Of a stretch of DNA of 64,000 nt, positions 27,422 through 63,391 are shown piece after piece (positions within the stretch are counted from its first letter, which is position 1; every line of letters starts with the position of its first letter). Under the pieces are notes generated by a model. The model searched no databases and was not told the origin of the DNA. It saw nothing but the letters and a program-made list of their open reading frames with translations. Both the position numbers and the translations under genes were made by a program. The stretch is from Candidatus Melainabacteria bacterium RIFCSPLOWO2_02_FULL_35_15. Its GTDB lineage: Bacteria > Cyanobacteriota > Vampirovibrionia > 2-02-FULL-35-15. Location of the stretch: positions 29,615 to 93,614 of the forward strand of contig MFRN01000004.1 in assembly GCA_001784585.1 (NCBI GenBank), in the 5' to 3' direction.

Positions 27422-29038
27422 ATGTCTACAAGCACAAATCAAATGTCAAACACAGATCAGTATACCGATAAAAACATAGAGTTTTTTGATTCAGTAATAG
27501 TTCTGGATTTTGGATCCCAGTATTCAGAACTAATTGCCAGAAGAATAAGAGAATTAAATGTTTATTCCGAACTTGTTTCTTACAGAACTACTTCTGAACA
27601 AATTAAAAAGCTCTCACCAAAAGGAATTATTTTATCCGGTGGTCCAAACAGCGTTTATGATCAAGGTGCACCGGATTGTGATCCAAAAATATTTGAGCTT
27701 GGTATTCCGGTTCTTGGAGTTTGTTATGGCATGCAGCTTATGTCAAAGACTCTGGGCGGAAAAGTCATTCAGACAGAAAAACATGAATATGGGAAAGCAG
27801 TCCTGGAAGTTAATCCAAAAGATAAATTATTCCTGGATCTTGAAAGTAAGTTTGTAAGCTGGATGAGCCATGGTGACAGTGTCACCGATCTGCCTGGAGG
27901 ATTTATCATAAGTGCAAAAACAAAAAACACTCCATGTGCTGCCATATCAAATCACGATAAAAAACTTTATGGTGTTCAGTTTCATCCTGAAGTTATCCAT
28001 ACAATGAACGGGCTTGAAGTCCTCCGAAACTTTGTAATAAATATCTGCCTTGCTAAGCCTTCATGGACAATGGATAAGTTTATCGGGGATTCTATCAGCC
28101 AGATCCATGCAAAGATAGGTGACAGGCGGGTTTTACTGGCACTGTCTGGCGGTGTAGACAGCTCAACCCTTGCATTTTTATTACATAAGGCAGTTCCTGA
28201 AAATCTTATGTGTATGTTTATAGATCAGGGTTTTATGAGAAAAGGTGAGCCTGAAAGATTAACTACGACTTTCCAGAATGAATTTGCTATTAAACTTCAC
28301 TATGTAAATGCCAAAGAAAGATTTATCTTGGCACTAAAAGGCATTATTGATCCTGAAGAAAAAAGAAAAATTATTGGCAGGGAATTTATAAGGGTTTTTG
28401 AAGAGGAGTCTAAAAAAATTGGTCCGTTTGATTATCTGGCACAAGGCACCTTATACCCGGATGTCATCGAATCTGCAGACTCTAATATCGATCCAAAAAC
28501 CGGTGAACGTGTAGCAGTAAAAATAAAATCACATCATAATGTCGGCGGGCTTCCAAAGGATCTTCAGTTTAAACTTATTGAACCGTTTAGAAAACTTTTT
28601 AAGGATGAGGTGAGAAAAGTAGCACGGCAGCTGGGTGTACCAAAACGAATCATAGAGCGGCACCCGTTTCCCGGTCCTGGTCTTGCTATAAGGATTATCG
28701 GAGAAGTTACCGAGGAAAAACTTTATAAATTACGTGAAGCTGACTCCATAATAAGAGATGAAGTAAACAAATCTGGTTTGTATAATTCTATCTGGCAGGT
28801 ATTTGGGGTGCTTTTACCGGTACAAAGTGTCGGTGTTATGGGTGATAAAAGAACTTACTCAAACCCCATTGTTCTTAGAGCAATAACCAGTGAAGATGGC
28901 ATGACGGCAGACTGGGCAAAATTACCTTATGAAGTCTTGGAAAAAATCAGCACACGCCTGGTTAATGAAGTTCCTGGAATTAACCGGGTAGTCTATGACA
29001 TAACATCCAAACCTCCGGCAACAATAGAATGGGAGTAA
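27422..29038 (+). CDS. guaA: GMP synthase (glutamine-hydrolysing)
   Basis: Converts XMP to GMP. 538 residues: glutamine amidotransferase domain (24-215) with [18 protein letters not shown], catalytic Cys in GVCYGMQLM and His/Glu in [12 protein letters not shown]-pyrophosphatase domain with PP-loop [13 protein letters not shown] (about 239-251); dimerisation domain with [30 protein letters not shown] and the C-terminal [11 protein letters not shown] mobile repeat is inserted exactly at the stop codon: the last codons GAATGGGAGTA are repeated 153 bp later, and the stop is restored as TAA. The extra N-terminal 20 residues are polar and probably disordered. Confidence 0.97.
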
Positions 29039-29201
29039 CTGCTCAGGTACTCCAAGTGCATCATGATCATGCCCTAAATCTGGGCCATCTAAGGAAGCGA
29101 GGTTTGCCTGATTCATTCAGCAAACTGAGCGGTCTATGCAAAGGTGGCTCTGAGGAGCAACGTCACCGCAAGAGCCACCTGAGTAATAACGAATGGGAGT
29201 A
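29027..29201. mobile_element. MITE-like repeat, family B, long copy, at the guaA stop codon
   Basis: The element (29038-29190, or 29035-29190 counting the full terminal repeat) is flanked by an exact 11-bp direct repeat, GAATGGGAGTA, at 29027-29037 and 29191-29201. Its ends are imperfect inverted repeats (GTAACTGCTCAGGT / GTTATTACTCAGGT, 11 of 14). An 85-bp reverse-oriented copy at 47011-47095 is identical to its outer parts; this copy has 71 extra bp (29102-29172) containing two hairpins, GTTTGCCTGA/TTCAGCAAAC and AGGTGGCTCT/AGAGCCACCT. It encodes no protein. Confidence 0.8.
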
Positions 29202-29688: not shown

Positions 29689-29767
29689 AGTATTAAGCTT
29701 TTATACTGAAATTATTTTACACCTGTCTACATCATTTGGTGTATATAGGATTATAAGAAATAAAAGA

Positions 29768-29933
29768 GTTACTGCCTAGCTATGTTACTAAGTCTCATCC
29801 AACTAACTTACAAAGAAAGGTTTTGCCTGGTTTATCCAGCAAAACCTGGAAAATGATACAAAAGGCAGACTGCGAGCACTTTGCAAAGCCCGACAAGCGA
29901 GGTACGAAGCAAGGAGGGCGGTAGGCAAAAACA
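29768..29933. mobile_element. MITE-like repeat, family A, copy 1
   Basis: 166 bp, about 97% identical (five differences) to 63214-63379. The ends are imperfect inverted repeats: GTTACTGCCTAGC at the left, GTTTTTGCCTACC reading in from the right. Flanking 7-bp direct repeats TAAAAGA/CAAAAGA match at six positions. Internally it carries a strong hairpin (GGTTTTGC...GCAAAACC, 29819-29847) and a GC-richer tail. No protein is encoded. Confidence 0.82.
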
Positions 29934-29957
29934 CAAAAGATAAGTCTTTTAACCTAA

Positions 29958-43753: not shown

Positions 43754-43862
43754 ATATTGGGGACTGGATAATCAGGAAACCTATTATAACTAATCTTTAT
43801 ATTATTGTAATCTATAAACTATAGGAAATATGATAAATACCAGTTCAAGTATAATTATGTTC

Positions 43863-43891
43863 TTGAGTTCTTTTTGGTTCTTAATTATAGG
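43863..43891 (+). promoter_or_regulatory. Promoter upstream of tRNA-Trp
   Basis: TTGAGT (43863-43868), 17-bp spacer, TATAGG (43886-43891). It lies about 90 bp upstream of the tRNA. The intervening sequence is repeat element C, so its transcript would carry the element as a leader. Confidence 0.45.
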
Positions 43892-43969
43892 ATTTGTTCC
43901 GCCTGAGGCGGACAAATCCGATCCTGTGAAAAGGATTTACAGACGGAAGCTGCAAACTTGTTTTGCAGC
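43890..43969. mobile_element. Dispersed hairpin repeat, family C, copy 2
   Basis: 80 bp flanked by ATTATA (43884-43889 and 43970-43975). It starts with a hairpin (GGATTTGTTCCGCC / GGCGGACAAATCC) and ends with GCTGCAAACTTGTTTTGCAGC-type stem. The two ends match copy 1 at 2494-2598 while the centre differs in length. Confidence 0.5.
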
Positions 43970-43981
43970 ATTATAAAAAAT

Positions 43982-44054
43982 GCGCCCTTAGTTCAGTTGG
44001 TAGAACGCAGGTCTCCAAAACCTGATGTCGGGAGTTCGAGTCTCTCAGGGCGCG
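43982..44054 (+). tRNA. trnW: tRNA-Trp (CCA anticodon)
   Basis: 73 nt. Acceptor stem GCGCCCT pairs with AGGGCGC (44047-44053), discriminator G at 44054. D arm TTAGTTCAGTTGGTAGA, anticodon stem CAGGT/ACCTG around loop CTCCAAA with anticodon CCA, T arm GGGAGTTCGAGTCTCTC. The 3' CCA is not encoded (TAGG follows). A T-run follows shortly. Beside secE-nusG, as common, but on the opposite strand. Confidence 0.96.
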
Positions 44055-47010: not shown

Positions 47011-47095
47011 GTTATTACTCAGGTGGCTCTCGCTTCCTTAGATGGCCCAGATTTAGGGCATGATCATGATGCACTTGGAGTACCTGAGCAGTTAC
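47011..47095. mobile_element. MITE-like repeat, family B, short copy
   Basis: 85 bp, identical to the outer parts of the 29.0-kb copy in reverse orientation, missing that copy's 71-bp central segment. Ends GTTATTACTCAGGT and ACCTGAGCAGTTAC form imperfect terminal inverted repeats. No clear target duplication is seen here. Confidence 0.8.
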
Positions 47096-63104: not shown

Positions 63105-63213
63105 ATGGGAAAAGTTATTGGGTTAATTCTACTGATAGTATAAAGGAAAATCAATATTAATCCCTGTTTTTTTATATTTCACAAAAATTAACTTACATTC
63201 CAGGTGTTTATTT

Positions 63214-63379
63214 GTTACTGCCTAGCTATGTTACTAAGTCTAATCTGACTAACTTACAAAGAAAGGTTTTGCCTGGTTTATCCAGCAAAACCTGAAAAAT
63301 GATACAAAAGGTAGACTGCGAGCACTTTGCAAAGCCCGACAAGCGAGGTACGAAGCAAGGAGGGCGGTAGGCAAAAACA
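63214..63379. mobile_element. MITE-like repeat, family A, copy 2
   Basis: 166 bp, 161 of 166 identical to 29768-29933. It is bordered by exact 7-bp direct repeats TTTATTT (63207-63213, 63380-63386). The hairpin GGTTTTGCCTGG/CCAGCAAAACC lies at about 63265-63292. It sits just after the stop codon of the TIG-domain gene (63392). Confidence 0.85.
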
Positions 63380-63391
63380 TTTATTTCTTAA

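Follow-up and report, generated by a model that had tools for sequence, protein, structure and literature searches.

A high-copy MITE family with a conserved structured core in Caenarcanales genomes, probably moved by an IS66-type transposase

In this study, we identified a new MITE family, family A, with an unusually conserved structured core in the genome of a Candidatus Melainabacteria (Caenarcanales) MAG (G000, the source genome; 1.94 Mb in 45 contigs). We consider family A to be a MITE moved by an IS66-type transposase that is made elsewhere in the genome, and we put the probability of this reading at about 85%. The window, that is, the whole stretch of 64,000 nucleotides that was analysed (C4:29615-93614), holds two copies of this short, non-coding, multi-copy element, and a covariance model found 31 matches in the source genome. 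Family A stands out for its abundance across the order, its structured core and the bias in its orientation. The features located in the window are collected in Table 1.

Table 1. Coordinates of family A, its parts and related elements in the window
Feature	Position	Strand	Remarks
Family-A MITE, copy 1	29768..29932	+	165 bp; 18 BLAST matches in own genome; model score 166.1 bits
Family-A MITE, copy 2	63214..63378	+	165 bp; 97% identity to copy 1; model score 167.0 bits
Left terminal repeat, copy 1	29768..29780	+	GTTACTGCCTAGC; identical to right end of IS66-type element
Right terminal repeat, copy 1	29920..29932	-	inward reading GTTTTTGCCTACC
Target duplication, copy 1, left	29760..29767		ATAAAAGA
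Target duplication, copy 1, right	29933..29940		ACAAAAGA; 7/8 matching
Target duplication, copy 2, left	63206..63213		GTTTATTT
Target duplication, copy 2, right	63379..63386		ATTTATTT; 7/8 matching
Hairpin H1	29818..29847	+	8 + 3 base pairs; compensatory changes; copy 2: 63264-63293
Conserved linker GCACTTTGCAAAG	29876..29888	+	near-invariant alignment columns
Hairpin H2	29888..29919	+	GCCC...GGGC; copy 2: 63334-63365
Second MITE type	29035..29190	+	156 bp; ends GTAACTGCTCAGG / GTTATTACTCAGG; 577 bp before copy 1
Internally deleted second-type copy	47011..47095	-	85 bp; lacks H1

The preliminary description had reported two copies of equal length, beginning at 29768 and 63214 and differing at five positions. 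This was borne out (differences at positions 29, 33, 34, 82 and 99), and the two copies are the longest repeat pair detected within the window. The length of 166 bp given there is wrong by one: the flanks of many other copies in the genome set the boundaries at GTTACTG...GCAAAAAC, which gives an element of 165 bp with an 8-bp duplication. The terminal inverted repeats are imperfect, as had been described (GTTACTGCCTAGC / GTTTTTGCCTACC; 9 of the first 11 bases match), and covariation between the two ends exceeds that in shuffles (1210 versus a mean of 1109, 143 copies). Promoter and terminator scans of both window copies gave matches at chance level only. A -35-like TAGGCA lies inside the left end of copy 1.

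A genome-wide search for copies found about 10 with 96-100% identity in the source genome, most of them with 8-bp duplications at unrelated sites. This supports the earlier view of a recently moved, non-autonomous transposable element. Elsewhere in the window, a weak model match (43843-43981, E 0.0055) immediately precedes a tRNA gene (at 43982) and is probably a chance match or a decayed copy. An 18-bp tandem repeat at 779-893, inside an ORF (408-1169), is collagen-like by sequence.

The target duplications, previously taken to be 7 bp, are 8 bp long. We compared the left and right flanks of 78 copies from seven genomes at lengths from 4 to 12, and found that flank identity was 69% at length 8 versus 33-38% at every other length tested. 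In 40 of the 78 copies the 8-bp duplication had at most one mismatch, compared with 1.0 expected (maximum 4) when flanks were shuffled between copies. In a pooled set, 69 of 144 distinct copies matched at 7 or more of the 8 bases. Clear duplications in the source genome include TATAATTG, CTAAAGTG, GAACTTTA, ATTAAATA, ATTAAATT, ATTTTATC, TAAATTAG and GAATAATG; the duplicated target sites are AT-rich. The termini show no TA insertion signature: the ends, G...C, stand beside 8-bp duplications without a fixed TA. In a tandem pair of elements in G010 (C51, L098:1501-1846), the duplication ATTATAAC occurs three times, once between the two elements and once on each outer side.

The preliminary description had placed the parent outside the window and proposed a search for a transposase with matching terminal repeats. 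We found no IS66 homologue in the window, and the broader statement that it contains no transposase holds for a sample of its remaining ORFs. The search with the end motif led to three further places in the genome that begin with GTTACTGCCTAGCATGAGC, the 3' end of an IS66-family transposase. This gene is intact once (462 aa, C31:22122-23507), with the right end GTTACTGCCTAGC, and its stop codon sits within the terminal repeat. The product matches PF03050 (DDE domain, TnpC; E 7e-42) and NF033517 (281.6 bits, cut-off 180). A likely parent resides in the same genome: the IS66-type element and the family-A MITE end in 13 identical bases and share the same duplication length. IS66-family ends generally begin GTAA. 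Those of the resident IS66-type element are GTTACTGCC.

Another IS66 copy lies across two contigs, C8 and C25, which break off 77-79 bases into its left and right ends. The bases adjoining these ends are AAACTATG / AAACTATG. We take them to be an 8-bp duplication flanking an IS66 copy that was not spanned in the assembly. We assign the C8 end as the IS66 left end because of this shared duplication and its similarity to the left terminus of an internally deleted IS66 in a genome of another genus (G007, C160; L053:1497-1751). The deleted copy is 255 bp long with intact ends, its right end is identical over 30 bases, and it is possibly a MITE in the making. The intact C31 copy shows no target duplication. 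The sequence GTTTCTGCCTAGG at C31:21930 was tried as the IS left end and is plausible by sequence; it has no target duplication, and the C8/C25 pair was preferred. The right end of the MITE (GTTTTTGCCTACC) agrees more poorly with the IS left end (GTTACTGCCTAGG) than the MITE left end does with the IS right end. The MITE is not a simple deletion derivative of the IS, with which its interior has no detectable similarity. The missing duplication of the C31 copy, the unrelated interior and the poorer agreement of the right end count against the IS66 reading. One broken IS66 copy, on C21, has a family-A element within its transposase gene, and this element is flanked by a duplication of its own, ATTTTATC.

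The transposition mechanism of family A is well supported, and from the shared ends and duplication length we infer the action of the resident IS66 transposase on the MITE. The IS66-type transposase, produced from a gene outside the MITE, would recognise the MITE ends, and the MITE would insert into AT-rich intergenic DNA. Repair of an 8-bp stagger would then produce the target duplication.

To describe the interior, we aligned copies across genera. Copies from different genera are about 70-80% alike in sequence, and H1, the linker GCACTTTGCAAAG and H2 persist. H1 follows the pattern AGGTTTTG.CYGR-loop-YCRG.AAAACCT or AGATTTTA..TAAAATCT. The H2 stem is replaced wholesale between genera with pairing retained: GCCC/GGGC in the genus of the source genome and in G004, GCCGGTTTT/AAAACCGGC in G006 and G010, GCCGGC/GCCGGC in G007, and GCAACACAATTTT/AAATTGTGTTGC in one old copy. 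Among 78 distinct copies, the two helices of H1 are paired in 99.5% and 98.7% of cells with eight pairs changed on both sides, and the whole model is paired in 94.4% of cells versus 22-45% with partners slid by 1-3 columns; these percentages are inflated by an alignment fitted to the model. Changes on both sides occur in 16 of 25 pairs, with double changes in 158 cells versus 41 in shuffles, where cells of related copies are not independent events. Double changes in H1 and H2 were also seen in an unfitted MAFFT alignment. The preliminary description had further proposed a stable hairpin. The fold of the whole element is unremarkable, with a folding energy no better than that of shuffles (z -0.6 and -0.8), but the element does contain a conserved internal hairpin of 30 nt. 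No covariance model of Rfam matched at gathering or lax thresholds.

We next consider placement. Among the copies examined, none lies inside a called ORF except the one in the broken IS66 gene. Random insertion between co-directional genes would give both orientations equally. We found that the element points with the genes in 46:12 cases overall (p 8e-6): 17:4 in a first sample and 29:8 in a second, which was fetched as a test. Stricter ORF cut-offs gave 47:15 and 41:13. The ratio was 27:4 for copies without intact duplications versus 19:8 for those with intact ones, an apparent excess in older copies, in the direction expected under selection against the opposite orientation. Copies of the source genome show no bias (2:4), and much of the overall bias is supplied by G004 and G010. 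The hairpins and the orientation bias suggest that the plus strand may be tolerated, or used, in RNA. The earlier idea that the element may be transcribed thus gains indirect support from co-orientation with neighbouring genes, though none from the whole-element fold. We disregarded short distances from the element to the following ORF, which arise artificially when the longest ORF is called.

These observations raise the possibility of a mobile structured RNA, whose transcribed plus strand would fold into H1 and H2 and act on neighbouring transcripts, with selection on the RNA in addition to transposition. We regard this as conceivable, but rather doubtful. The covariation in both hairpins and the co-orientation, found in two separate samples and apparently stronger in older copies, are consistent with it, and there are precedents in ERIC and NEMIS transcripts that affect mRNA stability (PMC2229807). 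G-U mispairs also exceed A-C mispairs (16:6 and 16:10); these counts are small, and we rejected them as proof of an RNA strand. Against this reading, DNA hairpins required for transposition would covary too, and the unremarkable whole-element fold, the lack of bias in the source genome and the lack of an Rfam match also count against it. A broader version, also tentative and rather improbable, is an RNA module throughout the Caenarcanales that would be carried by more than one transposon end type and affect transcript processing, stability or insulation. For the MITE moved by an IS66-type transposase, copies transcribed along with neighbouring genes would presumably be better tolerated. On this main reading, the hairpins are probably retained in still-active lineages for their benefit to transposition or because they lessen the damage done by insertions.

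To determine the distribution of family A, we searched related genomes. BLAST detected relatives in every one of the family's 10 other genomes; the 49 genomes searched elsewhere in the class had none. A covariance model built from 19 diverse copies gave at least 609 matches at E 0.01 across all 11 genomes of the family (31 in the source genome, then 85, 19, 13, 89, 29, 53, at least 128, 10, 24 and at least 128). With stricter filters, model matches among 146 genomes of the class occurred only in those 11, and in none of the 135 others. Phages, plasmids and viral contigs gave no match, so nothing points to carriage by a phage or plasmid. One copy in G001 (L089:1501-1656) has an ordinary 8-bp duplication, ACTCACTT, but its 5' part is replaced by a palindrome, GAGACGTTTCATGAAACGCCTCT.

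We also identified a second MITE type in the window, flanked by a perfect 8-bp duplication, GAATGGGA, at 29027-29034 and 29191-29198. It is inserted exactly at the 3' end of guaA, and the gene takes both the end of its last codon (Glu) and its TAA stop from the first four bases of the element. Its layout is the same as that of family A, with an H1-like hairpin, TGCAAAG and an H2 stem (GGTGGCTC/GAGCCACC); the covariance model recognises only its H1. Two further long matches were found in the source genome (96-98% over 131-135 of 158 query bases). Ends like those of the second type also occur on model-detected copies in relatives, which points to a superfamily with more than one transposase specificity. 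At about C30:35995 of the source genome (L040), a further repeat combines GAGCGAGGCGAGCAAGCGAGG with an H1-like hairpin next to a GTTTCTGCCTAAG end, and is possibly a mosaic of both MITE types.

The different end types on the same core suggest more than one transposase, in line with a reading in which another transposase moves the same MITE and the resident IS66 merely resembles it in its ends. We consider this unlikely. It would agree with the search for IS66 transposase in the other element-carrying genomes, which found none in nine of ten (G001-G006 and G008-G010), including G004 with its identical pair of copies. The driver in most of the order is accordingly lost, unassembled or different. 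However, multi-copy IS are often lost from MAG assemblies, and one is broken at contig ends here. The 13 identical terminal bases and the equal, rather specific duplication length within one genome also argue for the resident IS66. The ages of the copies agree in part with IS66 loss: they are 99% alike in the source genome, which has an intact IS66 gene, and none exceeds 90% in G001, with G004 as the exception.

A fixed regulatory or structural repeat of the REP type, which the palindromic interior hairpins recall, has practically no chance of being correct, as it is already refuted by the statistics of the 8-bp duplications, which repeat differing targets flush with the element ends, and is further contradicted by the insertion into a transposase gene and by a comparable site without the element in a congener. 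The preliminary description had named fixed positions without duplications as the pattern that would speak against mobility, and our observations differ from it on both counts. Specifically, where the site could be compared, the ACT-domain orthologue in the congener G001 lacks an upstream element. At copy 2, the G002 contig ends, and for the site of copy 1 we found no orthologue of the STAS gene in congeners.

Taken together, family A, a MITE probably moved by an IS66-type transposase, is a high-copy transposon family, apparently not described before, of an entire order of uncultured, non-photosynthetic relatives of Cyanobacteria. The likely transposase, the exact duplication length and the covariance model can be used for its annotation. 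It is an unusually clean MITE case, with the inside as well as the ends under compensatory change and an orientation that follows transcription, so that selection on the RNA of a MITE becomes testable.

We found no report of an IS66-type MITE or of the family-A element in the open-access papers searched, and a review (PMC10969869) names neither IS66-type MITEs nor Melainabacteria. Nezha, cited in that review, is likewise a MITE of the broader Cyanobacteriota. The resident transposase belongs to the IS66 family, whose members with 8-bp duplications are already known (PMC3281130), and its tentative assignment to the ISBst12-like group (single tnpC) follows from the presence of a single ORF. The MITE shares the 8-bp duplication and the end GTTACTGCCTAGC with the resident element, but has no gene and an interior unrelated to the IS. 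MITEs with a parent IS recognised by ends and duplication include MITEAba12 (PMC6382973) and MITEPsy1 (PMC3189936), which are likewise short and non-coding with terminal repeats and duplications; they belong to other IS families, with 9-bp and 4-bp duplications. In MITEAba12 the interior varies, the predicted structure is weak and neither orientation is preferred (PMC6382973), whereas family A has a covarying interior and a biased orientation. CIR, ERIC/IRU and NEMIS/Correia are mobile intergenic repeats of 100-200 bp with conserved RNA structure (PMC2229807). They have other hosts than family A, which lacks a TA-type insertion signature and has varied 8-bp duplications. Family A nevertheless resembles them in its conserved stem-loops with compensatory changes, and CIR RNAs have two arms and a linker (PMC2229807), as family A does.
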